A stretch of 64,000 nt of DNA from Asanoa ishikariensis (lineage in GTDB: Bacteria; Actinomycetota; Actinomycetes; Mycobacteriales; Micromonosporaceae), in contig NZ_FNQB01000002.1 in NCBI RefSeq assembly GCF_900107455.1, positions 930,001-994,000 of the forward strand, read 5' to 3'. How positions within the stretch are numbered: position 1 is the first letter of the stretch; each line of letters begins with the position of its first letter. Shown here one piece after another: positions 5,299 to 19,825 of this stretch. The notes under the pieces are model-generated. The model was not told the DNA's origin. It searched no databases and saw only the letters and a list, made by a program, of their open reading frames with translations. Made by a program: the position numbers and the translations under genes.

Positions 5299-7431
<2,133 letters not shown>

Positions 7432-7488
7432 CTACCTCCGGGAGGACTAGGTCTACCCAGCAACCTAGCCGCCCCGTACGACAAAGTC

Positions 7489-7851
7489 TCAGACCTCGAA
7501 CACCAGACAGAACGGGTGCCCCGCCGGGTCCTCGAAGACCCGGAAGTCCGCCCCGTCACCGGGCAGCCGCTTCGCGCCCAGAGCGATGGCCTGCGACTCC
7601 GCCTGGTCGATGTCGTCGACCATCACGTCCAGGTGGAGCTGCTGCGGCCGCTCCGGGTCGGGCCAGCGCGGTTCGCGCAGGTCGGACGCGAGCTGGAAGG
7701 CGATCCGGACCCGGTCGTCCGAGATCACCACCCAGCCTTCGCGCTTGTGCGTGACGGGCATGCCGAGCAACTCGCTGTAGAACCCGGCCAGAGCGGACGG
7801 ATCCGGACAGTCGATCACGACGTTGTAGAGGCGGCCGATCATGCCCGACAT
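7489..7851 (-). CDS. VOC-superfamily (glyoxalase-like) protein
   Basis: This 120-residue, single-domain protein has the beta-alpha-beta-beta-beta pattern of the VOC fold: GRLYNVVIDCPDPSALAGFYSELLGMPV at the start, LHLDVMVDDIDQAE in the middle and FEDPAGHPFCLVFEV at the end. It matches the Glyoxalase_6 subgroup often found beside ligA in actinobacteria. Metal-ligand positions are only partly kept, so it may be a binding or resistance-type protein and not a true glyoxalase. An alternative start three codons later (ATG 7842) cannot be excluded. It lies between ligA and the MetE-like gene, on the same strand. Confidence 0.8.
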   Translation of the reverse strand: MSGMIGRLYNVVIDCPDPSALAGFYSELLGMPVTHKREGWVVISDDRVRIAFQLASDLREPRWPDPERPQQLHLDVMVDDIDQAESQAIALGAKRLPGDGADFRVFEDPAGHPFCLVFEV

Positions 7852-7872
7852 CTTTCCCTACCTGGCCGCCGG

Positions 7873-8871
7873 TTATTCCTCGACGAGCCGACGCCCGGCG
7901 TCCCGGCAGGCCGCGAGCACGTCCTTGGCGTAGGTCAGGGAGGCGCCCGCCAGCCCGCAGGTCGGCGTCACCACCACCTGCTGCGGCAGCAGCCGCGCAT
8001 CGAAGCCGAGGTGGTGCCAGACCGTGCGTACCCGGTCGACCAGGTCCTTGTGGCTCGGCGCGCGCGTGCCGCTGGTCGGCGCCACGCCGGCCAGCAGGCC
8101 CACGCCGGCGTCGATCGCCTCACCCAGCGGGTCGAGGGCCGTGACCAGCGAGAGGTCGATCGACAGGGCGCTGGCGCCCGCCGCGACGAGCAGCGAGATG
8201 GGCACGTCCGGCGCACAGCAGTGGAACACCGTCGGCGCGTCGACCCGGGACACGAGCTCGCGCAGCGCGTCGGTGGCCGTGGTGACCTCGACCGGCCGGT
8301 ACACGCTGAACCCGCTCTCGGTCGGGACGTGGCCGGCCAGCACCGTCGGCAGCGACGGCTCGTCGATCTGGAGCAGCACGGTCGCGCCGGGCAGCCGGCG
8401 CCGCACGTCCTCGACGTACCGCCGCAGCCCTTCCGCCAGCGACGCGGTCAGGTCGCGGACCGCGCCCGGGTCGCGCAGCAGGCGCCCACCGATCGGCAGG
8501 TCAACGCCGGCGGCCATCGTGTACGGCCCGGCCGCCTGCACCTTGACCACGCCGGTGTAGCCGTCACCCTGCTCGGTGAGCTGGTCGAGGTCGCGGTCCA
8601 GCAGGTCGAACGCGCGGCGCAGGTCGCGACCGGGCCGGGAGGCGATCCGCCAGCGCCCGGTATAGACCTCGACCGGCATGTCGACCAGGAACGCCGACGT
8701 CCGCCCGATGATGTCGGCACCGGCGCCCCGGTCCGGCAGTTCGGGGAGATGCGGCAGGTCAGGAAGCTCGCCCAGCACCACCCGCTGCGTCTCGGCGATG
8801 TCGGTGCCGGGCATCGAGCCGACACCCGTCGCGCTGCCGGCCGGCCACAACCATCGTTCCTGCTCATTCAC
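7873..8871 (-). CDS. Core-MetE-like methionine synthase homologue
   Basis: The protein has 332 residues from GTG 8871, which overlaps the end of the upstream gene by eight bases; the frame extended to 8922 would lie further inside that gene and is less likely. Only the C-terminal half of cobalamin-independent methionine synthase is represented. The zinc-ligand positions appear kept: HCC near residue 218 (VFHCCAP), the glutamate of IDEPS, and the cysteine of TPTCGLAGAS. Lacking the N-terminal folate domain, it corresponds to core-MetE proteins, which take the methyl group from a donor other than polyglutamyl folate. A similar gene neighbours ligA in mycobacteria (Rv3015c, from memory). The methyl donor is unknown here. 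Confidence 0.8.
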   Translation of the reverse strand: MNEQERWLWPAGSATGVGSMPGTDIAETQRVVLGELPDLPHLPELPDRGAGADIIGRTSAFLVDMPVEVYTGRWRIASRPGRDLRRAFDLLDRDLDQLTEQGDGYTGVVKVQAAGPYTMAAGVDLPIGGRLLRDPGAVRDLTASLAEGLRRYVEDVRRRLPGATVLLQIDEPSLPTVLAGHVPTESGFSVYRPVEVTTATDALRELVSRVDAPTVFHCCAPDVPISLLVAAGASALSIDLSLVTALDPLGEAIDAGVGLLAGVAPTSGTRAPSHKDLVDRVRTVWHHLGFDARLLPQQVVVTPTCGLAGASLTYAKDVLAACRDAGRRLVEE

Positions 8872-9598
8872 GAGGCAGGAGCCTACCGATGACCTGGGTA
8901 CGGGTAGCCGGGTGACCGTCACGCCAGAGCCACACCACGTCGCGCCCGAACGACTCGACCAGCAGCGCGAACGCGACCAGGAGGAGCACCACGTTGGCCC
9001 GGAACGGCAGCACGCCGGCAGTGGTCGTGATCAGCGCGATGCCCTGGGTCGCGGCCACCACCTTGCGCCAGTAGCGGGGCGGGAGCGTGCCGCGCATCCA
9101 GCGGGTCGACCAGATGCCGAGCAGGAACGCGTACCGCATGCCGCCGATCGCCAGCACCCACCAGCCGGCGGAACCGGCCACGTACAGGCTGAGCACGAGG
9201 AGCAGGAACGAGTCGGCTTCCATGTCGAACCGCGCGCCGAACGCCGACGTCGTGCCGGTGCGCCGGGCTACCTGCCCGTCGACGCCGTCGAGCAGCAGCG
9301 CGACGACCACCAGGCTGACGATCGCACCGACCGCCGGCGCGTGCTCGAGCGAGTCGACGACGAGCGCCGTGACCACCCCGATCAGGGTCGTCCGACCGGC
9401 CGTCACCCAGTCGGCTGGGCCGTACCCGTTGAGTCCGGATGATGACAGTCCGTGTTGGAGAAGGATCATCGTGACGAGTGCGAACGCGACGCCTGTGAAC
9501 CAGGCGACAGCGCCCATGCCGACCGCGGCCCCCACCGCAACAAGCACTGTGAGCTGGGCAAACATGCCGACCAGGGGGCCGGACCGAACCAGGCGCAT
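8864..9598 (-). CDS. CDP-alcohol phosphatidyltransferase family membrane protein
   Basis: The protein has 244 residues from ATG 9598 and about six transmembrane segments. The full signature of the family is present: DG-VDGQVAR, eight residues, G, three residues, D, three residues, D (DGQVARRTGTTSAFGARFDMEAD, four aspartates conserved). These enzymes join an alcohol phosphate to a CDP-linked lipid or polyol. The acceptor cannot be read from the sequence. It diverges over an 81-bp gap from the pterin/GCHII operon and overlaps the MetE-like gene behind it. The shared promoter region suggests it belongs functionally with the plus-strand operon, which also has a flippase-like protein and a membrane phosphotransferase. 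Confidence 0.88.
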   Translation of the reverse strand: MRLVRSGPLVGMFAQLTVLVAVGAAVGMGAVAWFTGVAFALVTMILLQHGLSSSGLNGYGPADWVTAGRTTLIGVVTALVVDSLEHAPAVGAIVSLVVVALLLDGVDGQVARRTGTTSAFGARFDMEADSFLLLVLSLYVAGSAGWWVLAIGGMRYAFLLGIWSTRWMRGTLPPRYWRKVVAATQGIALITTTAGVLPFRANVVLLLVAFALLVESFGRDVVWLWRDGHPATRTQVIGRLLPRE

Positions 9599-9679
9599 CG
9601 TTCCTCCGTGTCATGAAGCGGCACCAGATAGCACGGGAGATGGGATCGTTCGGTTCATGAACATGACGGAGAGCCACGA
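9599..9679. promoter_or_regulatory. Divergent promoter region between the CDP-alcohol transferase and the pterin/GCHII operon
   Basis: Both genes must be started from these 81 bp. A perfect 10-bp palindrome, GTTCATGAAC, lies at about 9653-9662, and a related TCATGAA occurs at 9611-9617. The plus-strand gene has a Shine-Dalgarno sequence (GGAGAG) seven bases before ATG 9680. No confident -10 or -35 boxes were found. Confidence 0.35.
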
Positions 9680-10657
9680 ATGAGCCTGTCGGAACGCGCA
9701 TTCTGGGTGGTCAAGCCCGGCTTCGGCGAGATCCGCCCGGCCGCCGTCGACCCACCCGGTCCCGACGAGGTTCTGGTCCGCACGATCCGGTCCGGTGTCA
9801 GCCGGGGCACCGAGACCTTGGTGTTCCGCGGCGCTGTGCCGGCGAGCCAGCATACGGTCATGCGCGCGCCCTTCCAGGAGGGTGACTTCGCCGGATCGGT
9901 GAAGTACGGCTACCTGAACGTGGGCGTGGTCGAGCAGGGCCCGGCCGAGCTGCTCGGGCGCACGGTGTTCTGCCTTTACCCACATCAGAGCGCGTATGTG
10001 GTGCCCGCGTCAGCGGTCGTCCCGGTGCCGGACGACGTGCCACCGTCGCGCGCGGTGCTGGCCGGCACGGTGGAGACCGCGGTCAACGCGCTCTGGGACG
10101 CGCCACCGCTGGTCGGCGACCGGGTCACTGTGGTCGGTGGCGGCATGGTCGGTTGCGGCGTCGCGCGGCTGCTGGCGCGGTTCCCGGGCGTGGCGGTCGA
10201 GCTCGTCGACGTCGACCCCGCGCGAGCCGCGACGGCGGCGGAACTCGGTGTCGACTTCGCCCATCCGGATGACGCCGCGACCGGTCGTGATCTGGTCTTC
10301 CACGCCAGCGCCTCGGAGGCGGGCCTGCGTCGAAGTTTGGCTCTGCTCCGCCCGGAGGGCACGGTGGTCGAGCTGAGCTGGTACGGCGACCGCGAGGTCA
10401 GCGTGCCGCTCGGTGCCGGGTTCCACTCCGGACGCCTCGCCATCCGGGCGAGCCAGGTCGGCATGGTCGCGCCGGCCCGGCGTTCGAGCCGGTCCTATGC
10501 GGACCGGATCGCGCTCGCCCTCGACCTGCTCCGCGATCCGACGTTCGACGCCCTGGTCAGCGGCGAACACCCGTTCGAGCGTCTACCCGACGTGCTCCCC
10601 GCACTCGCGTCTGGCAGCCTGGCCGGGTTGTGCCACGTCATCACCTACGGAGAGTAG
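9680..10657 (+). CDS. Zinc-type alcohol dehydrogenase homologue (MDR superfamily), first gene of the pterin/GCHII operon
   Basis: The protein has 325 residues. A GroES-like N-terminal domain ([18 protein letters not shown], then [11 protein letters not shown] and [16 protein letters not shown]) is followed by a Rossmann domain with [18 protein letters not shown] near residue 147. It resembles the BchC and bacteriochlorophyllide-dehydrogenase-like branch. In the first catalytic motif the usual cysteine is replaced (SGVSRGTE where CG.C.TD is typical), and the structural four-cysteine lobe is absent, so the active-site metal may be missing. It probably oxidises or reduces an intermediate of the cluster using NAD(P). 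The next gene begins eight bases after its stop. Confidence 0.85.
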
Positions 10658-10665
10658 AGAAACAC

Positions 10666-11064
10666 ATGTTCAGCGTCACGGTGCGCGATCACATGATGAT
10701 CGCCCACAGCTTCCGCGGCGAGGTCTTCGGCCCGGCTCAGCAGCTCCACGGTGCGACCTTCCTCGTCGACGCCACGTTCCGGCGGGCCGAGCTCGACGCG
10801 GACGGCATCGTCGTCGACATCGCCCTGGCCTCCGAGGAGCTCAAGGCCATCGTCGGGCAGTTCAACCTGCGCAACCTCGACGACGACCCGACGCTGGCCG
10901 GGATGAACACGACGACCGAGGTGCTGGCGAAGGTGATCGCGGACCGGCTGGCCGAGCGGGCCTCCTCCGGCGCGCTCGGTGCGGGCGGGCCGGAGCTGGC
11001 CGGCATCACCGTCACCCTGCACGAGTCGCACATCGCGTGGGCGAGCTACGAGCGATCGCTGTGA
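10666..11064 (+). CDS. 6-pyruvoyl-tetrahydropterin synthase / QueD-like protein with altered zinc site
   Basis: The protein has 132 residues from ATG 10666 (GGAGAG upstream). The PTPS fold is recognisable from the first histidine (MMIAHSF), the second (QQLHGATF), the [15 protein letters not shown] helix (the PT.E motif) and the C-terminal [11 protein letters not shown], which supplies the catalytic His and Glu. In known PTPS and QueD enzymes the second motif reads HGH and a cysteine lies just before it; here the third zinc ligand is alanine and the cysteine is missing. The chemistry is therefore likely to differ from 6-carboxytetrahydropterin synthesis. It overlaps the next gene by four bases. 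Confidence 0.82.
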
Positions 11065-12068
11065 ACCTTTCGCCGCCGGGCGGCGTACAGGTCATCGTGC
11101 CCGACGACATCGACAACCCGGCATTCCCCAGCGGTGGGAACGCGTACGACCGCCGGGTCCTCGATGCCCTGGTGGGGCTCGGCTGGACGGTGCGTGAGCA
11201 CCTGGTTCCGGTCGGTGCTCCGCTGGGTCCGGTGTTCGATGCACTGCCCGACGGCGATCTGGTCCTGGTCGACGGTCTGCTGGCGCCGGACGTGCCGGTG
11301 GACCGGGTCGGTCGGCTGCGCCTCGTCGTGCTGGCCCACATGGTGTTCGGCACGCCGGCCGAGCGGGCCGTGCTGGCCGCCGCCGACGCGGTCCTGACCA
11401 CCAGCGAGTGGTGCCGCCGGCACCTCGCCGACGCCTACGGTGTCGTGGCCACGGCGGCCGCGCCCGGCGTCGAGCCCCAACCGGTCACGTCGCCCAGCGC
11501 GACCGGTGAGCGGCTGCTCTGCGTCGCCGCCGTCCTGCCCCACAAGGGCCAGGACGTGCTCGCCGACGCCCTCACAGCGCTGCCCGAGGCGGGCTGGAGC
11601 TGCCGGTGCGTGGGCTCGCTGGACCGGGAGCCCGACTTCGCCGCCGAGGTGCGCGGGCGGGCGCCGGCCGCGATGCGGTTCACCGGCCCGCTGGTGGGTG
11701 CCGACCTCGACGCCGCGTACGCCGACGCCGACCTGCTCGTGCTGCCGTCCCGCGCGGACTCGTACGGGATGGTGGTCACCGAGGCCCTGGCCCGGGGCAT
11801 CCCCGTGCTGACCACCACCGCCCAGGGACTGCCCGACACGCTGGGCCGCGCACCCGACGGCAGCCGGCCCGGGATGTTGGTCCCGCCCGGTGACTCCGGC
11901 GCGCTGGCCGCCGCGCTGCGGCGTTGGCTCACCGAACCCTCCGCCCGTGACGCGCTGCGCAGGTCCGCCCTCGAACGTCGCACGACGCTGACGGGCTGGC
12001 CGGTCACCGCGAAGCTGGCCTCCGATGTCCTGTCCACGGTCGCGATGCGGGAGAGCACGAGCAGATGA
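11061..12068 (+). CDS. Glycosyltransferase, GT4 family (GT-B fold)
   Basis: The protein has 335 residues from GTG 11061, inside the preceding stop. The C-terminal half shows the GT4 pattern: [20 protein letters not shown] for the second Rossmann domain, then [27 protein letters not shown], in which the first of the two usual glutamates is aspartate. The N-terminus ([25 protein letters not shown]) holds the acceptor domain. It should transfer a sugar from a nucleotide donor to the product of the cluster or to a lipid carrier; neither donor nor acceptor can be named. No membrane segment is present. It overlaps the methyltransferase gene by four bases. Confidence 0.9.
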
Positions 12069-12871
12069 CGAGCGCCCTGATGCCCAAGGCCAGCCCCAAC
12101 TGGCTGCGCCTGCGTGAAGCCGCCGACGCGGCCGCACGCTCCGCCGAGCTCGTCGCCGAGGTGCACGAGCGGATCGGTGCGGCGAGCCGGTTGGTGATCC
12201 ACGACCTGGGCTGCGGCACCGGCTCGGCGGCCCGCTGGCTCGCACCGCAGCTACCGGCCGCGCAGCACTGGATCATGTGGGACCGCGACCCGGACCTGCT
12301 GGCCGCGGCCATGTCCGGCAAGCCGGAGCAGATCACCGCCGCGACCCGGCAGCGCGATCTGGGCACCCTGACCGCCGCCGACCTGGCCGGGGCCGACCTG
12401 GTCACCGCCTCGGCGCTGATCGACGTGCTGACCCTCGACGAGGTCGAGGCGATCGCGGCGGCGTGCGCGGGGGCCGGCGTACCCGCGTTGATCATGCTGT
12501 CGGTCGTCGGGCGGGTGGAGCTCGACCCGGCCGACCCGTTCGACGACGAGGTCGCGGCCGCCTTCAACGCGCACCAGCGGCGCGCGGTGGGTGGTCGCCG
12601 CCTGCTCGGCCCGGACGCGGTAGCCGCGCTGTCCGACGCGTTCGCCCGTCACGGGGTGTCGACCACGCTGCGGCCCAGTCCCTGGGAGCTCGGCGTGGAC
12701 GACCGGGATCTGCTCGTGGTCTGGTTCCAGGAGTGGCTGGACGCCGCCGTCGAGCAGGTGCCCGCGCTCGGCAAGCCCTCCACCGGCTACGCCCGCCGCC
12801 GGCTCGCGGAGATCGCTGACGGGCGCCTCACCGCGACCGTCCACCACGTCGACCTGCTGGCCACGCCGTGA
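12065..12871 (+). CDS. Class I SAM-dependent methyltransferase
   Basis: The protein has 268 residues from ATG 12065. Motif I is clear (VIHDLGCGTGSAARWLA, residues about 44-60) and is followed by IMWDRDPDLLAAA, giving the acidic residue that holds SAM. LVTASALIDVLT corresponds to motif post-II/III. The N-terminal helices (WLRLREAADAAARSAELV) and the end (GYARRRLAEIADGRL) are typical of a small family found in actinobacterial clusters with PTPS-like genes, though I cannot name its substrate. It is coupled by four-base overlaps to the genes on both sides, so it almost certainly acts in the same pathway. Confidence 0.88.
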   Translation: MTSALMPKASPNWLRLREAADAAARSAELVAEVHERIGAASRLVIHDLGCGTGSAARWLAPQLPAAQHWIMWDRDPDLLAAAMSGKPEQITAATRQRDLGTLTAADLAGADLVTASALIDVLTLDEVEAIAAACAGAGVPALIMLSVVGRVELDPADPFDDEVAAAFNAHQRRAVGGRRLLGPDAVAALSDAFARHGVSTTLRPSPWELGVDDRDLLVVWFQEWLDAAVEQVPALGKPSTGYARRRLAEIADGRLTATVHHVDLLATP

Positions 12872-13800
12872 CCCGGGCACAGTTCTGGGGCTGGGCCCGC
12901 CTCGTCGGTGGCGGGGCCGTGCTGGTCGTGCTGGTCTGGCGGCTGGGCAGTGGGCCGTTCCTCACAGGCCTGCGCGGGGTCAACGCCACCGCGGTGACCA
13001 TCGCCTTCACGATCGGCGTAGTGACCACCGTGGCCTGCGCCTACCGGTGGGCGCTGGTGGCCCGCGGGCTCGGCGTGACGCTGCCGCTGCGGGAGGCGGT
13101 CGGCGCCTACTACCGGGCGCAGTTCCTCAACACGACGCTGCCCGGTGGAGTGGTCGGCGACGTGCACCGGGCGGTCCGGCACGGCAAGGACATCGGCGAC
13201 GTCAAACTGGGCGTACGCGCGGTCGTGGTCGAACGGATGGCCGGCTTCGTGGTGACGATCGCCCTGTCGGTGATCACCCTGGCCGTGTTCCCGTCGCCGG
13301 TGCGTAGGCACATGCCGATGGCCGTGGCCGCGCTGGCGGTCGTGGCGCTGGTCGCGTACCTGGTCAAGGGCCGGATGCGGATCCGCACCGGCCTGTTCTC
13401 GGCCCGCACCGGCATCGGCGTGGTGCTCACCACCGCGGCCGTGCTGGCCGGTCACCTGATCACCTTCCTGGTCGCGGCGCGGACGGCGGGAGCCACCGCC
13501 CCGCTGACCCTGCTAGCCCCGCTGACCCTGCTCGCCCTGCTGGCGATGGCGCTGCCCTGCAACATCGCGGGCTGGGGTCCGCGCGAAGGGGTGGCCGCCT
13601 GGGCGTTCGGCGCCGCCGGTCTGACCTCCGAGCAGGGCGTCGCGACCGCGGTCGTGTTCGGCGTGTTGGCGCTGGTCGCGAGCCTGCCGGGGGCCGTGGT
13701 GCTGGTGCTGCGTTGGGCGGACGCCCGTCGCGCTGCGGAGAAACCGGTAATGCTGGAACATGAGCGTGTCCACCGGCAACCGGAGTACAGCCATGGCTGA
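12868..13800 (+). CDS. Lysylphosphatidylglycerol-synthase-type transmembrane protein (UPF0104), flippase-like
   Basis: The protein has 310 residues from GTG 12868, with about eight transmembrane segments. Family hallmarks are the loop YYRAQFLNTTLPGGVVGDVHRAVR near residues 83-108 and NIAGWGPREGVAAW near residue 232. Members include the flippase domain of MprF and many proteins beside glycosyltransferases in lipid or glycan pathways. There is no aminoacyl-transferase domain, so it is not a lysyl-phosphatidylglycerol synthase. The likely job is to move a lipid-linked or amphiphilic product across the membrane, inferred from context. It overlaps the genes on both sides (four bases and eight bases). 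Confidence 0.87.
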   Translation: MTRAQFWGWARLVGGGAVLVVLVWRLGSGPFLTGLRGVNATAVTIAFTIGVVTTVACAYRWALVARGLGVTLPLREAVGAYYRAQFLNTTLPGGVVGDVHRAVRHGKDIGDVKLGVRAVVVERMAGFVVTIALSVITLAVFPSPVRRHMPMAVAALAVVALVAYLVKGRMRIRTGLFSARTGIGVVLTTAAVLAGHLITFLVAARTAGATAPLTLLAPLTLLALLAMALPCNIAGWGPREGVAAWAFGAAGLTSEQGVATAVVFGVLALVASLPGAVVLVLRWADARRAAEKPVMLEHERVHRQPEYSHG

Positions 13801-14485
13801 GCGGCCCTACATCGTGCTGAGCTGTGCGATGTCGATCGACGGATACGTCAACGACACCGCCGACGACCGCCTCATGCTCTCCAACGAGGCCGACTTCCAC
13901 CGGGTCGACGAGGTTCGGGCGAGCTGCGACGCGATCCTGGTCGGCGCCGAGACGGTCCGTCGCGACAACCCGCGTCTCGTGGTGAAGTCGCCGGAGCACC
14001 GGGCGGCCCGGGTGGCCCGCGGCGAGCACCCCACGCCGCGCAAGGTGACCGTCACCGAGGGCGGCGACCTCGACGCGGAAGCCGCCTTCTTCCAGTCGGA
14101 GGACGCCGAGAAATTCGTCTACTGCGCGACCTCCACCGTGGAACAGACCCGGCGGCGACTGGGCGCGCATGCCACCGTCGTCGACGGCGGTCAGCCGGTC
14201 AACCTGCGCCAGGTCACCGAGGACCTCTACGCTCGCGGCGTCAGCCGGCTGATGGTCGAGGGCGGCGGCACGATCCACACCCAGTTCCTGTGCGAGGAGC
14301 TCGCCGACGAGCTGCACCTGGTGGTGGCACCGTTCTTCGTCGGCGACTCCAAGGCACCCAGGTTCGTCGGCGACGGGGACTTCCCCTGGTGCCAGGAGCG
14401 CCAGGCGACCCTGGCCGAGGTTCGCCAGGTGGGCGACGTAGTGCTGCTGCGCTATGCCCTGTCGCCCCGGTTCGGCACCGTCTGA
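13793..14485 (+). CDS. RibD C-terminal-domain (dihydrofolate-reductase-like) reductase
   Basis: The protein has 230 residues from ATG 13793, with CCGGAG upstream and an eight-base overlap with the previous stop. The RibD-C fold is shown by VLSCAMSIDGYVND, then DAILVGAETVRRDNPRL, then LMVEGGGTIHTQFL. There is no deaminase domain. Stand-alone proteins of this kind reduce the ribosyl side chain of 2,5-diamino-6-ribosylamino-pyrimidinone 5'-phosphate (RIB7 type), the direct product of GTP cyclohydrolase II. As the next gene is exactly that enzyme, the two very probably act in series. The final product of the operon is unknown. Confidence 0.88.
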   Translation: MAERPYIVLSCAMSIDGYVNDTADDRLMLSNEADFHRVDEVRASCDAILVGAETVRRDNPRLVVKSPEHRAARVARGEHPTPRKVTVTEGGDLDAEAAFFQSEDAEKFVYCATSTVEQTRRRLGAHATVVDGGQPVNLRQVTEDLYARGVSRLMVEGGGTIHTQFLCEELADELHLVVAPFFVGDSKAPRFVGDGDFPWCQERQATLAEVRQVGDVVLLRYALSPRFGTV

Positions 14486-14496
14486 TGAGGAGATTG

Positions 14497-15129
14497 ATGG
14501 ACGACGCGACGATACGCACGCAGGTATCGGTCCCCCTTCGGTTCCCCGACGGCTACGCCACGAAGGCGGAGGTGTTCACGTTCCACGGTCTCGTGGACAA
14601 CCGCGAGCACATCGCGTTCGGGCTCGGCGACTGGCGCGACACCCTGGCCCGGGACGAGGCGCCCCTGGTGCGGCCGCACAGCGAGTGCCTGACCGGTGAC
14701 GTGTTCGGCAGCGAGCGCTGCGACTGCGGCCCGCAGTTGCGCGAGGCGGTCGAGCGGATCAGCAACGCCGGCGGCCTACTGCTCTACCTCCGGCAGGAGG
14801 GGCGGGGCATCGGCCTCTACGCGAAGCTCGACGCGTATGCCTTGCAGGACACCGGAATGGACACGTACGAGGCGAACCTCGCGCTCGGGCACGGCGAGGA
14901 CGAGCGCGACTACACGCCCGCCGCGCAGATGCTGCGCGCCCTCGGCGTATCGCGGATCGCGTTGCTCTCCAACAATCCCGACAAGGAGGAGCAGCTCACG
15001 TCGCTGGGCGTGGCGGTCACGAAGCGGGTGCCGACCCGGCTGCACCTGTCCCCGGCCAACGCGGGCTACCTGGCGGCCAAGGCCAGATACGCCCGACGGA
15101 CGGTGGAGCCGGACTGGCTCGCGTCGTGA
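14497..15129 (+). CDS. ribA: GTP cyclohydrolase II (stand-alone RibA)
   Basis: The protein has 210 residues from ATG 14497, with GAGGAG five bases upstream; an ATG at 14485 in the same frame is the alternative. Zinc ligands are SECLTGDVFGSERCDCG (three cysteines), and the signature LRQEGRGIGLYAKLDAYALQD is complete. The tyrosine equivalent to Tyr105 of the E. coli enzyme is kept, unlike the Streptomyces form with methionine there that makes only the formylated product (recalled from work on S. coelicolor). It should therefore convert GTP to the diamino-pyrimidine. There is no fused dihydroxybutanone-phosphate synthase. Its place in this operon suggests a role separate from housekeeping riboflavin synthesis. 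Confidence 0.93.
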   Translation: MDDATIRTQVSVPLRFPDGYATKAEVFTFHGLVDNREHIAFGLGDWRDTLARDEAPLVRPHSECLTGDVFGSERCDCGPQLREAVERISNAGGLLLYLRQEGRGIGLYAKLDAYALQDTGMDTYEANLALGHGEDERDYTPAAQMLRALGVSRIALLSNNPDKEEQLTSLGVAVTKRVPTRLHLSPANAGYLAAKARYARRTVEPDWLAS

Positions 15130-16721
15130 AGAGCCGGATCCTGACCGGCCTGGCCGCTTTCTTCGTTCTCCTGCTCCTGCTCGTGCCCGACGACTTCGCC
15201 GCACTGAGCCCGTGGGCCCTGCTGGCGATCCCGCTGGAGGCGCTGGTCGGCGTCGCCGTCGTGGTGTTCCTGCCGCCGCGCGTCCGCACGGTGGTCGGCA
15301 TCGTCGCCGGCGTCCTGCTCGGCGCGATCAGCATCCTCAAGCTGCTCGACCTGGGCTTCGGCGTCACGCTGTCCCGGCAGTTCGACCCGCTCTCGGACTG
15401 GTCGCTGTTCCGCGCGGCGTCCGAGTGGGTCTCCGAGTCGTTCGGCAAGCCCGGCGCGGTCGGCGCCGTGATCGTGGCGATCCTGCTCGCGTTGGCGCTG
15501 CCGGTGTTGGCGGTGCTGTCGATCCTGCGGCTGTCCCGCGTGGTGTCGGTGCGCCGGAACCTCGCGCTGCGGGTCGTCGCCGGGCTCGCCGTGGTCTGGG
15601 TGACGCTGGCGATCCTGGGCGTGCACCTGGTGCCCGGCATCCCGGTCGCCGGCCGGAGCACGGCCGCGGCGGCCTACGACCACGCCGCCCAGCTTCGCGC
15701 GGACATCAGGGACCAGGCGGCGTACGACCGCGAGGAGTCCACCGACGCCTACCGCGACGTACCCGCTTCCCAGCTCCTGCAAGGGTTGAAGGGCAAGGAC
15801 GTCATCTTCGCGTTCGTGGAGAGCTACGGCCGCGACGCGGTGAACTACCCGCAGACCGCCGCCCTGCTCGCGTCGCGTACACAGCAGTTGACCGCGGCCG
15901 GCTTCCAGTCCAGCAGCGGTTGGCTGACTTCGTCGACGATCGGCGGCGGAAGCTGGCTCGCCCACTCGACGTTCCAGTCGGGTCTGTGGATCGACAGCCA
16001 GCGGCGGTACGGGAAGTTCACGGAAGGCACGCGCTACACGCTGACGACGGCGTTCTCCAAGGCCGGCTGGCGCACGGTGGCCGTGATGCCGGCCAACCGG
16101 CGCGACTGGCCCGAGGGCGCGGTCTACGGCTGGGACAAGGAGTACGACGACCGGACGCTCGGCTACAAGGGCCAGGGCTACGCGTTCTCCTCGATCCCGG
16201 ACCAGTTCACGATGCACTCGTTCCACGGCACCGAGTTGGCCCAGCCGCTGCCCGCCCGCAAGCCGGTGATGGCCGAGATCGACCTGTTGTCCAGCCACGC
16301 GCCGTGGACCCCGGTGCCGCCGATGATGGACTGGGACAAGCTCGGCGACGGCTCGACGTATCCGGGCAACGGCGGCAAGGGCGGCAACCCTGACGAGATC
16401 AACAACGAGGACGCGAACACGGTCCGGGACAACTACCGGCGTACGGTCGAGTACTCGGTCGACAGCCTGGTGTCCTATATGGAGAAGTACGGCAACGAGA
16501 ACACCGTCATGGTGATGCTCGGCGACCACCAGCCGTCCCCGATCATCACCGGCTCTGACCCGAACCGCGACATCCCGATCACCGTGATCGCCAAGGACCC
16601 GTCTGTCCTGCCGCGCATCGCGAGCTGGGGTTGGTCACCCGGGCTGGCCCCGGTCGCCGACGGCCCGGTCTGGCGCATGGACGCCTTCCGCGACCGCTTC
16701 CTCGCCGCGTTCGCCAAGTAG
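15126..16721 (+). CDS. LtaS/sulfatase-type membrane phosphotransferase or hydrolase
   Basis: The protein has 531 residues from GTG 15126, overlapping the ribA stop. About five transmembrane segments fill residues 5-175, followed by an extracellular alkaline-phosphatase-superfamily domain: DVIFAFVESYGRDAV near residue 222, STIGGGSWLAHSTFQSGL carrying the candidate nucleophile Ser/Thr, DLLSSHAPWTP, and MVMLGDHQP near residue 463. This architecture is that of lipoteichoic acid synthase and phosphoethanolamine transferases. It may attach or remove a phospho-group on the exported product. It ends 87 bp inside the convergent TetR gene. It is the last gene of the operon. Confidence 0.85.
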   Translation: MKSRILTGLAAFFVLLLLLVPDDFAALSPWALLAIPLEALVGVAVVVFLPPRVRTVVGIVAGVLLGAISILKLLDLGFGVTLSRQFDPLSDWSLFRAASEWVSESFGKPGAVGAVIVAILLALALPVLAVLSILRLSRVVSVRRNLALRVVAGLAVVWVTLAILGVHLVPGIPVAGRSTAAAAYDHAAQLRADIRDQAAYDREESTDAYRDVPASQLLQGLKGKDVIFAFVESYGRDAVNYPQTAALLASRTQQLTAAGFQSSSGWLTSSTIGGGSWLAHSTFQSGLWIDSQRRYGKFTEGTRYTLTTAFSKAGWRTVAVMPANRRDWPEGAVYGWDKEYDDRTLGYKGQGYAFSSIPDQFTMHSFHGTELAQPLPARKPVMAEIDLLSSHAPWTPVPPMMDWDKLGDGSTYPGNGGKGGNPDEINNEDANTVRDNYRRTVEYSVDSLVSYMEKYGNENTVMVMLGDHQPSPIITGSDPNRDIPITVIAKDPSVLPRIASWGWSPGLAPVADGPVWRMDAFRDRFLAAFAK

Positions 16722-17351
16722 GCCGGTCAGCAGGGCCCGCAGGGCGCGGCCGAAGAGGTCGTCCTTCGGTGGAGGTCCGGGGTTGGCCAGCGCGGCCGCC
16801 AGATGTGGGTGGTGCGCGGGGTCGAGGGCCGCGAACGGCTGCGCGTCGGCGTTCGTCGTGGCGCGGCTGAACAGGACCACCACGCCGGTCATCAGCGCGA
16901 TCGCTTCGAACTTGGCGGTGGTGGGCGCCGGGACCTCGCGCAGGACGCCGAGGCAATGGTCGAACCAGGAGAGCGTCTCCGGGCCGGCACCGGTCGGGCG
17001 TTGGCTCAGCTCGCCCAGCCAGCGGTGCCGGCGGTGCAGGTCGAGCTGTCGTTCGGCCAGGGCCTGCAGGTCGTCGAGCCAGTCGCCCTTCGGTCGCGGG
17101 TACGGCCGTAGCTCGCCCACCGCGCGGTCGGTCATCAGGTCGAGCAGGTCGTCGCGGGACGACAGATAGCGGTAGAGCGAGCCGGCCGTGGTGTCCAACG
17201 CCGTGGCGACCGCGCGCATCGAGACCGCGGGTAGTCCTTCGACGTCGGCCAGTCTCATGGCGGCCGCCACGATCTCGTTCCGGCTGTGTCCGGGCGCCGG
17301 TCCACGCCGGCCGCGTTCGGGTCGGGTCCAGATGGGTTGCGCGTCGCTCAC
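16635..17351 (-). CDS. TetR-family repressor
   Basis: The protein has 238 residues from GTG 17351. A DNA-binding domain follows a basic, proline-rich start: SRNEIVAAAMRLADVEGLPAVSMRAVATALDTTAGSLYRYLSSRDDLLDLM. The C-terminal part (DLQALAERQLDLHRRHRWLGELSQRP) is a TetR_C-type ligand domain. The last 29 codons run antisense to the 3' end of the sulfatase-type gene. A -10-like TACAGT lies six bases before the GTG, so the message may be leaderless. A 25-bp palindrome between it and the divergent hydrolase gene is the expected operator, giving autoregulation and control of the hydrolase. Confidence 0.85.
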   Translation of the reverse strand: MSDAQPIWTRPERGRRGPAPGHSRNEIVAAAMRLADVEGLPAVSMRAVATALDTTAGSLYRYLSSRDDLLDLMTDRAVGELRPYPRPKGDWLDDLQALAERQLDLHRRHRWLGELSQRPTGAGPETLSWFDHCLGVLREVPAPTTAKFEAIALMTGVVVLFSRATTNADAQPFAALDPAHHPHLAAALANPGPPPKDDLFGRALRALLTGLLGERGEEAVAEGVHAPDRAVGDRGQPG

Positions 17352-17362
17352 CGCATAACTGT

Positions 17363-17387
17363 AAACTGCAAACGACGTTCGCAGTTT
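17363..17387. promoter_or_regulatory. TetR operator in the divergent promoter
   Basis: AAACTGC (17363-17369) and GCAGTTT (17381-17387) form inverted arms around 11 bases, and AACG continues the symmetry inside. The dyad lies 12 bp from both the GTG of the repressor and the ATG of the hydrolase, covering both promoters. Confidence 0.7.
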
Positions 17388-17399
17388 AGGGGAGGGGTC

Positions 17400-18239
17400 A
17401 TGGAGCGGGTCACGACATTCGACGGCGCCACCATCGCGCTGCATTCGACGGGCACGGGGCCGGGCATCGTGGTGGTGCACGGAGGCGGCGTGACGATCGA
17501 CGTCTACCGGCGCTTCGCGGCGGCGCTGGCCGACCGGTTCACCGTGCATCTCTACAACCGCCGGGGCCGGGCCGACGCGTGCGCGCGGGTGCTGCCCTAC
17601 ACCTTCGAGCAGGAGGTCGACGACCTGTCGGCGGTGCTCGCGCACACCGGCGCGGTCAACGTGGTCGGGCACAGCGGCGGCGGCTTCATCGCACTGTCGG
17701 CCGCGCTGCGGCTGCCGATCGAGCGGCTCGCGCTCTACGACGCGGCGATCTCGATCGACGGCAGCTTTCCGGCGGCGTGGCTGCCCGCCGCTCGCGCGGC
17801 GGCTGGGGCCGGCGACCTGCCCCGGGCCATGGCGCTGACCGCTGGTGGCATCAACACGCACCAGGCCACATCGCGGTTGCCGCTCCCGGTGCAGGTGGCG
17901 ATGTGTCGGCTGTTCCTGCGCACGCCGATCGGCCGGATGATGGGCGACCTGCTGCCGATGACACTCGACGAGTCCGCCCTGATCGCGGCGGCCGACGGCT
18001 CCGCCGACCGCTGGGCCGGCGTGACCGCGTCGGTGCTGCTGGCCTGCGGGGCCAAGGGTCCGCGCTACTACGTGGCCGCCGACGATGCCCTGGCTGCCGC
18101 GCTGCCGCACGCCCGGGCCCTGGAGATCCCGGGCTGCGGCCACGACGGCATCAACCGCGCACCCGCGCACCTGGTCGAGGTGTTCGCGGACTTCTTCGCG
18201 ATCCCTGCGCCGCGGCCTTCCGGCGAGCCCGTCCTCTGA
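17400..18239 (+). CDS. Alpha/beta hydrolase
   Basis: The protein has 279 residues from ATG 17400, with a strong GGGGAGGGG site. The fold is given by GIVVVHGGGVTIDVYR (oxyanion hole), VNVVGHSGGGFIALS with the nucleophile serine near residue 96, and IPGCGHDGIN with the catalytic histidine near residue 250. The acid is not certain. Small hydrolases controlled by a neighbouring TetR repressor often act on esters, lactones or signalling molecules, and the substrate may be the repressor's ligand. It diverges from the TetR gene across the palindromic operator. A hairpin-forming dispersed repeat follows the stop. Confidence 0.87.
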   Translation: MERVTTFDGATIALHSTGTGPGIVVVHGGGVTIDVYRRFAAALADRFTVHLYNRRGRADACARVLPYTFEQEVDDLSAVLAHTGAVNVVGHSGGGFIALSAALRLPIERLALYDAAISIDGSFPAAWLPAARAAAGAGDLPRAMALTAGGINTHQATSRLPLPVQVAMCRLFLRTPIGRMMGDLLPMTLDESALIAAADGSADRWAGVTASVLLACGAKGPRYYVAADDALAAALPHARALEIPGCGHDGINRAPAHLVEVFADFFAIPAPRPSGEPVL

Positions 18240-18240
18240 A

Positions 18241-18304
18241 GCGAAGCGAGCGGTCCCCGGCGGGAGCGACGGTCGTGCCGCTCGCGAACCCGGGAACCGC
18301 TCGT
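18241..18304 (+). repeat. Dispersed intergenic repeat, copy 1 (hairpin-forming)
   Basis: The core CCGGCGGGAGCGACGGTCG is preceded by GCGAAGCGAGCGGTCC and followed by ACCCGGGAACCGCTCG. The ends (CGAGCGGT and ACCGCTCG) are inverted, so the element can fold and may serve as terminator for the hydrolase gene. A second copy is at 34153-34211, and a 21-base piece in reverse is at 63431-63451. Confidence 0.7.
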
Positions 18305-18325
18305 TCGTTTAGTCCTTTTAGGACT

Positions 18326-19825
18326 TCAGCTCGCGCCGAGGCGTTCGAGAATGAGCTCTCGAACCGTCTTGGCGTCAGCCTGCCCCTTGGTGGTCTTCAT
18401 GACGGCGCCGACCAGGGCGCCGGCCGCGGCCACCTTGCCGTCGCGGACCTTGGCGGCCACGTCCGGGTTGGCGGCGATGGCCTCGTCGACCGCGGCCGTC
18501 AGCGCGCCGGTGTCGGAGACGACGGCGAGCCCGCGGGCCTCCATCACCTCCGTCGGGGAGCCCTCGCCGGCGACGACGCCCTCGATGACCACCCGCGCCA
18601 GCTTGTCGTTGAGCTTGCCGCTGTCGACCAGCGTCTGAAGCTCGGCGACCTGCGCGGGGGTGGCACCCACGGACGCGAGGTCGATGCCGGCCTCGTTGGC
18701 ACGCCGGGCGAGCTCGCCCAGCCACCACTTGCGGGCAGCCGCCGCGGTGGCACCCGCCGCGACCGTCTCCTCGATCAGCTCGACCGCGCCCGCGTTGACC
18801 ACGGACTGCATGTCCAGATCGGACAGACCCCAGGACTCCTGGATGCGCTTGCGACGATCCCGCGGCGGCTCCGGAAGAGCCAACCGAAGCGATTCGACCC
18901 AGGCCGGGTCCGGTGCGAGCGGCACCAGGTCGGGCTCCGGGAAGTAGCGGTAGTCGGTCGCCGTCTCCTTCGAGCGGCCCGGGCGGGTGTCGCCGGTCTC
19001 CTCGGAGAAGTGCCGGGTCTCCTGGACGATCCGGCCGCCGCCCTCGAGCACCGCGGACTGGCGGATGATCTCGGTGCGGACTGCGCGTTCGACGGAGCGC
19101 AGCGAGTTGACGTTCTTGGTCTCGGTGCGGGTGCCCCATTCGTCGCCGGGCCGGTTGAGCGACGTGTTGACGTCGCAGCGCAGCGAGCCCTCTTCCATCC
19201 GGACGTCCGAGACGCCGAGGCCGCGGATCACCTCGCGAAGCTCGGTGACGTAGGCGCGGGCCACCTCGGGCGCGAGCGCTCCGGTGCCCGGGACCGGCTT
19301 GGTGACGATCTCGACCAGCGGGATGCCGGCGCGGTTGTAGTCGACCAGCGACTCGGTCGCGCCGTGGATGCGGCCGGTGGCACCACCGACGTGCAGCGTC
19401 TTGCCGGTGTCCTCCTCGAGGTGCACCCGCTCGATGCCGATCCGGACGGTCTTGCCGTCGACCTCGACGTCCAGGTAGCCGTCGACGCACAGCGGCTCGT
19501 CGTACTGGCTGATCTGGAAGTTCTTCGGCATGTCCGGGTAGAAGTAGTTCTTCCGGGCGAACCGGCACCAGGTGGCGATCGAGCAGTTCAGCGCCAGGCC
19601 GATCCGGATCGTCGCCTCGATGGCCGCCTTGTTGGCCACCGGCAGCGAACCGGGCAGGCCGAGGCAGACCGGGCAGACCCGGGTGTTGGGCTCGCCGCCG
19701 AAGTCGGTCGGGCAGCCGCAGAACATCTTGGTGTTGGTGCCGAGCTCGACGTGGGTCTCCAGGCCGATCACGGGCTCGAAGCCGGCGATCGCCTCGTCGT
19801 AGGTGGGCAGCGTCGTGGTGGTCAT
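18326..19825 (-). CDS. gatB: Asp-tRNA(Asn)/Glu-tRNA(Gln) amidotransferase subunit B
   Basis: The protein has 499 residues from ATG 19825, overlapping the gatA stop by one base (ATGA). GatB landmarks are clear: [36 protein letters not shown] (zinc cysteines), [44 protein letters not shown] and the C-terminal YqeY-like helical tail ending [22 protein letters not shown]. With GatA and GatC it converts Glu-tRNA(Gln) and Asp-tRNA(Asn) to the amidated forms; GatB holds the kinase-like site and the tRNA tail domain. It is the last gene of the gatCAB unit. Confidence 0.98.

Follow-up and report, generated by a model that had tools for sequence, protein, structure and literature searches.

A conserved operon of Asanoa ishikariensis that may divert GTP to a ribityl-pyrimidine or pteridine compound fixed to the membrane

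Introduction

The closest described counterpart of the locus analysed here is the SCO6650-SCO6655 cluster of Streptomyces coelicolor. The structure paper on SCO6650, a T-fold homologue of PTPS, reportedly found no zinc, no PTPS activity (the protein is said to be inactive on dihydroneopterin triphosphate) and a site that could hold a pterin-like ligand. Its cluster partner SCO6655, a GTP cyclohydrolase II (GCH2) studied by Spoonamore et al. in 2006 (cited in PMC3509567), reportedly makes a formylated intermediate. Through these two proteins, the Streptomyces version of the cluster is already partly known. Here we analyse the version found in Asanoa ishikariensis (Micromonosporaceae), in a 64,000-nucleotide stretch that we call the window (positions 930001-994000 of contig NZ_FNQB01000002.1; host genome, 9.09 Mb). 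Nine genes lie together there, coding for a dehydrogenase (ADH), a PTPS homologue, a GT4 glycosyltransferase, a methyltransferase (MT), a flippase-like LPG_synthase_TM protein (LPG_TM), a RibD_C reductase, GCH2, an LtaS-like phosphotransferase and a CDP-alcohol phosphotransferase (CDP transferase). We present comparative evidence that these genes make up a dedicated pathway starting from GTP.

Several other known systems share parts of this gene set. Riboflavin biosynthesis (RibA and RibD) uses GCH II and RibD_C on what are predicted to be the same early intermediates, whereas the nine genes include no deaminase, RibB, RibH or RibE. The assembly of phosphatidylinositol mannosides or of lipoteichoic acid likewise brings together a CDP-alcohol transferase, a GT4 enzyme, a flippase-like protein and an LtaS/LtaP/GacH-like fold; in the window, by contrast, the head-group genes code for enzymes of a GTP-derived heterocycle, and no inositol phosphate synthase is found among the nine genes. 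The creatininase-family enzyme BrbF, which together with ArfB represents the bacterial and archaeal riboflavin formamidases, deformylates just that formylated intermediate (PMC9478397); a creatininase-family gene is present in the Streptomyces clusters and at a Haloarcula marismortui locus, where a formamidase role is putative, but absent from the window. For the PTPS/QueD/FolB-bypass family COG0720, PMC5041015 gives CxxxHGH, CxxxxxHGH and ExxHGH as the motifs of PTPS-I, PTPS-II and PTPS-III.

Results

A nine-row PTPS alignment was compared with a genome collection holding one genome per species (84,980 species), and at least 556 stretches encoding relatives were found, the best relative being the PTPS of Asanoa siamensis (89%). 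The best 80 of these stretches were surveyed, and genes were counted in the 62 loci that had at least 4 kb of upstream and at least 8 kb of downstream sequence (18 loci with short flanks were excluded), a homologue being counted if it exceeded 100 bits anywhere in the locus. Because the genes are conserved across these 62 loci (Table 1), a chance grouping is excluded, and the link to enzymes of membrane and glycolipid type, which a preceding sequence-only reading of the window had drawn, is supported. That reading had been staked on co-occurrence in other genomes, and the genes do co-occur widely. Micromonosporaceae, Streptomyces, Rhizobiaceae, one gammaproteobacterium and haloarchaea all show the core order ADH-PTPS-GT4-MT. 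Of 396 genomes sampled evenly from the phylum, 87 matched the PTPS at E 1e-3; nine of these held a near- or full-length copy at 53% identity or more, and most of the others were distant.

Table 1. Loci in which each cluster gene was detected, by taxon (empty cells, no count given)
Group	n	CDP transferase	ADH	GT4	MT	LPG_TM	RibD_C	GCH2	LtaS-like	Creatininase family
Micromonosporaceae	20	17	20	20	18	19	20	20	15	0
Streptomyces	38	37	37	37	37	37	6	37	2	37
Other taxa	4	4	4	4	4	4	2	2	3	0
All loci	62	58	61	61	59	60		59

In a small control comparison, three loci with ordinary QueD-like PTPS (L126-L128) contained no ADH, GT4, MT, CDP transferase, LPG_TM or LtaS gene, and one of them (L127) had a GCH2 gene and a weak RibD_C match. 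At locus L118 the PTPS gene stands alone, with no cluster around it. On two Streptomyces giant plasmids (L141, L142), too, a close PTPS homologue (66-68% identity) is the only cluster gene detected; these plasmids carry sigma-factor and regulator genes at these loci.

The window GCH2 scores 250 bits with PRK00393 (cut-off 148) and retains the three zinc Cys residues and the switch Tyr (KLDAYALQD and HSECLTGD...RCDCG). The switch residue, Tyr at E. coli position 105 in canonical GCH2 and Met in SCO6655, follows the gene content of the locus in the 78 GCH2 sequences compared: wherever the locus has a creatininase-family gene (42 loci) it is Met, and at the loci without that gene it is Tyr in 35 of 36 (one of these, L127, is not a cluster locus) and Ser in the remaining one (L071). 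The Tyr form of the window is predicted from its sequence to make the deformylated diaminopyrimidine. Both a creatininase-family gene and RibD_C are present in six Streptomyces loci, and at the H. marismortui locus the creatininase-family gene lies about 5 kb from ADH. GTP cyclohydrolase III, which is unrelated to GCH II, overlaps the start of ADH in two haloarchaeal loci (PF05165, 3e-81 and 2e-87); at L151, a haloarchaeal locus with this enzyme, PTPS was undetectable. The Tyr form of GCH2, the Met form combined with a creatininase-family protein, and GTP cyclohydrolase III would therefore all feed one family of intermediates, (formyl)diamino-ribosylaminopyrimidinone phosphate.

The RibD_C protein of the window has as its best NCBIfam match TIGR01508, the archaeal 2,5-diamino-6-ribosylamino-pyrimidinone-phosphate reductase, at 141.5 bits and so under the cut-off of 186.45. 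The host encodes RibD (with its deaminase), RibE, RibBA and RibH in a separate operon (L003/L001), so the window GCH2 and RibD_C are extra copies, and none of the nine genes codes for a deaminase domain, DHBP synthase, lumazine synthase or riboflavin synthase. An entry through GCH II and a deaminase-less RibD_C, distinct from riboflavin synthesis, was part of the sequence-only reading and is borne out here; the possibility it had named as fatal to itself, that these were the only riboflavin enzymes of the host, is contradicted by the separate operon. The host genome as a whole contains 26 RibD_C-family matches.

The PTPS homologue is an orthologue of SCO6650 (PDB 3D7J), with which it shares 99 of 132 residues (75%; phmmer 1.9e-62), and the core order is kept at the two loci with the PTPS most similar to SCO6650 (L100, 129/132; L113, 128/132). 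The Streptomyces version differs in having a Met-type GCH2 and a creatininase-family gene, whereas the window combines a GCH2 of the Tyr type with RibD_C and with an LtaS-like gene linked to them. In an alignment with QueD-like proteins, the catalytic Cys is replaced by Ala in the window protein; FNL stands in place of FDH, where most relatives have LNY and a deep actinobacterial branch has LHY; and HGH has become HGA throughout the main clade, the second His being replaced by Ala, whereas the deep branch keeps HGH. None of the PTPS-I, PTPS-II and PTPS-III motifs matches, the window sequence reading GPAQQLHGA. The T-fold itself is shared with COG0720, and the Glu aligned with that of QueD is retained. 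In QueD this Glu anchors the pterin ring. With no catalytic Cys, no Asp-His pair and one zinc-binding His missing, the protein is unlikely to perform canonical PTPS chemistry, and identity as a canonical QueD or PTPS was rejected on the missing diagnostic motifs. Thus, of the earlier description as a PTPS-like protein, the family assignment stands and the canonical chemistry does not. Two Streptomyces cluster genes also surface elsewhere: SCO6655 is tabulated among genes whose expression runs counter to the predicted flux and most of which rise in stationary phase (PMC2853524), and SCO6652 in a comparison of mycelium stages (PMC3610822).

The remaining core enzymes belong to broad families. 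ADH reaches 26.6 bits with ADH_zinc_N, below the cut-off of 31.8, and its best NCBIfam match, bchC, is far under the cut-off (42.1 vs 291 bits); 45 columns are invariant among 15 ADH sequences ranging from Actinomycetota to Haloarcula. MT clears two cut-offs (Methyltransf_25, 31.7 vs 27 bits; Methyltransf_11, 21.4 vs 21.2), and a search with its model (pLDDT 90.8) led to generic class I enzymes, hence to no substrate. Fusions join GT4 to MT in L046 and L123, and GCH2 to RibD_C in Pseudonocardia L071. In an 830-residue stop-to-stop frame of a metagenome-assembled Thermoleophilia genome (L061), the CDP transferase (residues 68-291) is followed by the LtaS-like domain (313-828); a script flagged an overlap of these domains, which came from small secondary pieces. 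The three fusions suggest that the pathway consists of three modules. Genes for FkbM-family methyltransferases recur by the cluster in L085, L071, L136, L147 and L148 (Pseudonocardia, Rhizobiaceae and Palleronia).

In the membrane module, the CDP transferase motif D-x2-D-G-x2-A-R-x8-G-x3-D-x3-D is invariant in 13 sequences, including those of Rhizobiaceae and Haloarcula. LPG_TM scores 37.2 bits with TIGR00374 (cut-off 43.2). MprF, the LPG synthase, carries a C-terminal synthase domain; the window protein, of 310 amino acids, matches the transmembrane region only and reaches 22.9 bits with bifunc_MprF against a cut-off of 600. LtaS and LtaP possess a domain of the alkaline-phosphatase fold that binds metal and uses Thr as its nucleophile. 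The LtaS-like protein of the window matches Pfam Sulfatase weakly (17.8 bits, cut-off 25) and the profile of 4UOP, 'lipoteichoic acid primase', at 4e-4. The best Foldseek hits of its model, which has a mean pLDDT of only 69, are LtaP, GacH and LtaS (8e-8 at the top, TM-scores of about 0.35-0.46). Residues E232, S276, H391, D467 and H468 are invariant in 11 aligned sequences; the fold and the residues of metal-binding type match, but the candidate nucleophile is Ser276 and not a Thr.

Even where it is unlinked, the LtaS-like enzyme goes with the cluster. Among 199 Streptomyces genomes, 87 hold both PTPS and the LtaS-like gene, 4 PTPS only, 1 the LtaS-like gene only and 107 neither; that is, kinship being ignored, the gene occurs in 87 of 91 PTPS-bearing and 1 of 108 PTPS-free genomes, mostly at a distance from the cluster (nearby in 2 of 38 loci). 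In the host family (150 genomes), the corresponding numbers, again with kinship ignored, are 97, 2, 9 and 42.

PTPS was matched in 21 plasmid records, of which 18 were examined; ADH adjoins PTPS in 16 of these 18. Outside the actinobacteria, homologues of all nine genes are present on six Rhizobiaceae plasmids (L135, L136 and L144-L147), and a plasmid of the gammaproteobacterium Thiodictyon has the order ADH-PTPS-GT4-MT-cytochrome b561-RibD-CDP transferase-LtaS-like. Cytochrome b561 genes were identified within clusters by Pfam in Thiodictyon (L133:14528-15085) and Agrobacterium (L135:15011-15544), and cytochrome b is annotated in the clusters of Peteryoungia and Rhizobium SL42. In the vicinity of L148 are a GT4 gene, an inositol-monophosphatase-family gene and a PfkB kinase gene. 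The haloarchaeal sample, seven plasmid loci, contains ADH in all seven, PTPS and MT in six each and CDP transferase in three (L150, L152, L153). The core order is found in four of the seven (L152, L153, L154, L156), with one opposite-strand gene interrupting it in L153 and a PTPS in L152 that is unannotated, is matched in two pieces and may be broken. In L152 (H. marismortui pNG700), a sulfatase-like gene (L152:6979-7845; 20 bits, under the Pfam cut-off of 25) directly precedes ADH. A fused Gfo/Idh-aldo/keto reductase gene (L152:4919-6886) lies between CDP transferase and ADH in this locus, and a Gfo/Idh gene precedes CDP transferase in L150.

The gene layout of the window proposed in the sequence-only reading was confirmed at every coordinate (Table 2): eight plus-strand genes span 9680-16721, two junctions having gaps of 8 and 11 bp and the others overlapping, and the ninth gene diverges at 9598, across 81 bp. 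In 16 aligned divergent regions, a CCTCCGT resembling a ribosome-binding site and a short GTTC stretch are conserved, and no clear promoter motif was visible by eye; Rfam gave zero matches across 7000-18500. The GTG start of a gene resembling the MetE catalytic domain (PF01717) overlaps the CDP-transferase stop. This gene was rejected as a tenth member, since the survey of 80 loci, not all of them with long flanks, showed it in the Asanoa locus (L041) only. The neighbouring TetR and abhydrolase genes were likewise rejected, being present, in the same 80 loci, in L041 only, bar a 26-bit abhydrolase match in L119.

Table 2. Features of the cluster in the window and its adjoining gene
Feature	Position	Strand	Evidence
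MetE-catalytic-domain-like gene, not a member	7873-8868	-	PF01717
CDP-alcohol phosphotransferase (PF01066)	8864-9598	-	Pfam CDP-OH_P_transf 5e-15
Divergent intergenic/promoter region, 81 bp	9599-9679	.	coordinates
MDR-type dehydrogenase, BchC-like (ADH), core gene 1	9680-10657	+	ADH_zinc_N, below cut-off
PTPS-fold (T-fold) protein, SCO6650 orthologue, core gene 2	10666-11064	+	Pfam PTPS 5e-23
GT4 glycosyltransferase, core gene 3	11061-12068	+	Pfam 3e-23 on the longer containing open reading frame 10413-12068
Class I S-adenosylmethionine methyltransferase (MT), core gene 4	12065-12871	+	Pfam Methyltransf_25 3e-7
LPG_synthase_TM flippase-like membrane protein	12868-13800	+	Pfam 6e-24
RibD_C reductase, no deaminase domain	13793-14485	+	Pfam 9e-43
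GTP cyclohydrolase II (GCH2), Tyr form	14497-15129	+	Pfam GTP_cyclohydro2 4e-55
Membrane LtaS/GacH-like phosphotransferase, alkaline-phosphatase fold	15126-16721	+	profile match 4UOP, Foldseek

Discussion

That a dedicated pathway exists is, in our view, nearly certain, and several kinds of comparative evidence support its unity as one functional system, the entry intermediate predicted for it and the link of the LtaS-like enzyme to it. The fuller statement, that the operon diverts GTP to a ribityl-pyrimidine or pteridine compound which in this host is fixed to the membrane, we hold at even chances. Under the model we propose, GCH2 would open GTP to give 2,5-diamino-6-ribosylamino-4(3H)-pyrimidinone 5'-phosphate, and RibD_C would then turn the ribose into ribitol, with the 2-amino group retained for want of a deaminase. 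The ribityl product may be altered or cyclised by ADH and the PTPS homologue, a T-fold protein without zinc, after which GT4 would attach a sugar and MT a methyl group. The CDP-alcohol transferase would join a polyol phosphate to a lipid, in the manner of phosphatidylinositol-phosphate or phosphatidylglycerol-phosphate synthases, LPG_TM would flip the lipid-linked product, and the LtaS-like enzyme would decorate it outside, probably with glycerol phosphate. The steps from the PTPS homologue onwards, the lipid anchor and the order of events we infer from knowledge of the enzyme families only. The most likely product is a glycosylated, methylated ribityl-diaminopyrimidine or pteridine on a membrane lipid.

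A number of observations weigh against this reading. No metabolite is known for the cluster. The association between the Met form and the creatininase-family gene is confined to Streptomyces and counts as one event. RibD_C is retained in only 6 of 38 Streptomyces loci, and a search of eight PTPS-holding Streptomyces genomes for a close homologue (E 1e-20) of the cluster RibD_C of this genus gave none; the RibD_C step is therefore unproven in Streptomyces. Five deep-branching actinobacterial clusters (L122-L125 and L129) carry RibD_C-ADH-PTPS-GT4, with no GCH2, CDP transferase, LPG_TM or LtaS detected within about 10 kb on each side, although very diverged copies could escape detection. One of these, L123, also has FolB (dihydroneopterin aldolase; L123:12101-12478) and PHP-domain (L123:7085-7846) genes beside its RibD_C-ADH-PTPS-GT4/MT cluster. 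CDP transferase, LPG_TM and LtaS were also undetected in the stretch covered at L121, L134, L138, L139, L143 and L148, and the seven haloarchaeal loci gave no RibD_C, GCH2, LPG_TM or LtaS-profile match. Nine host-family genomes hold the LtaS-like gene without PTPS, five of them in one genus (g242), and the Fisher tests of co-occurrence ignore phylogeny. Because the smaller clusters show no detected membrane genes, membrane attachment is optional across lineages, and the product of some lineages may be soluble.

Extended to the host, the latter idea yields an alternative that we consider unlikely but serious: a glycosylated pteridine or pyrimidine that is soluble and leaves the cell, to act as cofactor, pigment or signal, with the membrane proteins exporting it or modifying a separate sugar lipid made alongside. 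The loci just listed without a detected membrane module, from L121 to L148, fit this idea, as does the constancy of the ADH-PTPS-GT4-MT core, which exceeds that of any other part of the cluster; however, CDP transferase is retained in 58 of 62 loci and in three of the haloarchaeal ones, it is fused to the LtaS-like domain in L061, and the LtaS-like gene co-occurs with the cluster across genomes. It is hard to credit that PTPS acts here as in queuosine synthesis and that the product is a deazapurine or a nucleoside natural product. Many plasmid homologues are publicly annotated as 6-carboxytetrahydropterin synthase, but the window protein lacks the PTPS-I, PTPS-II and PTPS-III motifs, the GTP enzymes found in clusters are GCH II or III, and the annotation tables of the examined plasmid loci, the only place searched, name neither QueE nor QueC next to the cluster.

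Still less probable, in our estimate, is that RibA and RibD_C supply ribitol phosphate, cut from the reduced nucleotide, to a wall polymer, the heterocycle being waste. The LtaS-like enzyme and the CDP-alcohol transferase, both of teichoic-acid type, would suit such a polymer, whereas the chemistry would be wasteful, no ribitol cytidylyltransferase is among the nine genes, and PTPS, ADH and MT would go unexplained even though they are among the most conserved genes. A second supply operon for riboflavin (or F420) with unrelated neighbours, which the riboflavin-type GCH2 and RibD_C might bring to mind, was rejected as scarcely credible: the host has its RibD, RibE, RibBA and RibH genes elsewhere, a deaminase, DHBP synthase, lumazine synthase and riboflavin synthase are missing from the nine genes, and the association with PTPS, ADH, GT4 and MT persists across phyla.

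The model of a GTP-derived, membrane-fixed compound can be carried further, to a new class of membrane lipid in which a glycosylated, methylated ribityl-aminopyrimidine or pteridine head sits on a phospholipid, its core being common to actinobacteria, proteobacteria and haloarchaea; we put this forward tentatively, as somewhat more doubtful than not. Such a product may be a redox-active, membrane-anchored cofactor, since the clusters of Agrobacterium and Thiodictyon contain cytochrome b561 genes. A search of the open-licence literature found no description of this pathway or product, which may be in print elsewhere. We rate the pathway as new by comparison with that literature, its enzymes belonging to known families. 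The earlier remark that no pathway of such composition is known holds for the pathway, of which no account was found, and fails if taken to mean a system wholly unseen, its PTPS being 75% identical to SCO6650.

A pathway core that is present in two domains of life and for which no product was found described is rare. It would give a place to SCO6650, so far an orphan PTPS homologue, and to SCO6655 with its altered GTP cyclohydrolase. If the product is indeed bound to lipid, a GTP-derived heterocycle would be added to the known membrane head groups; if it is soluble, a new family of glycosylated pteridines would come into view. The results further suggest that many proteins annotated as 6-carboxytetrahydropterin synthase, in a family of at least 556 relatives, are misnamed.

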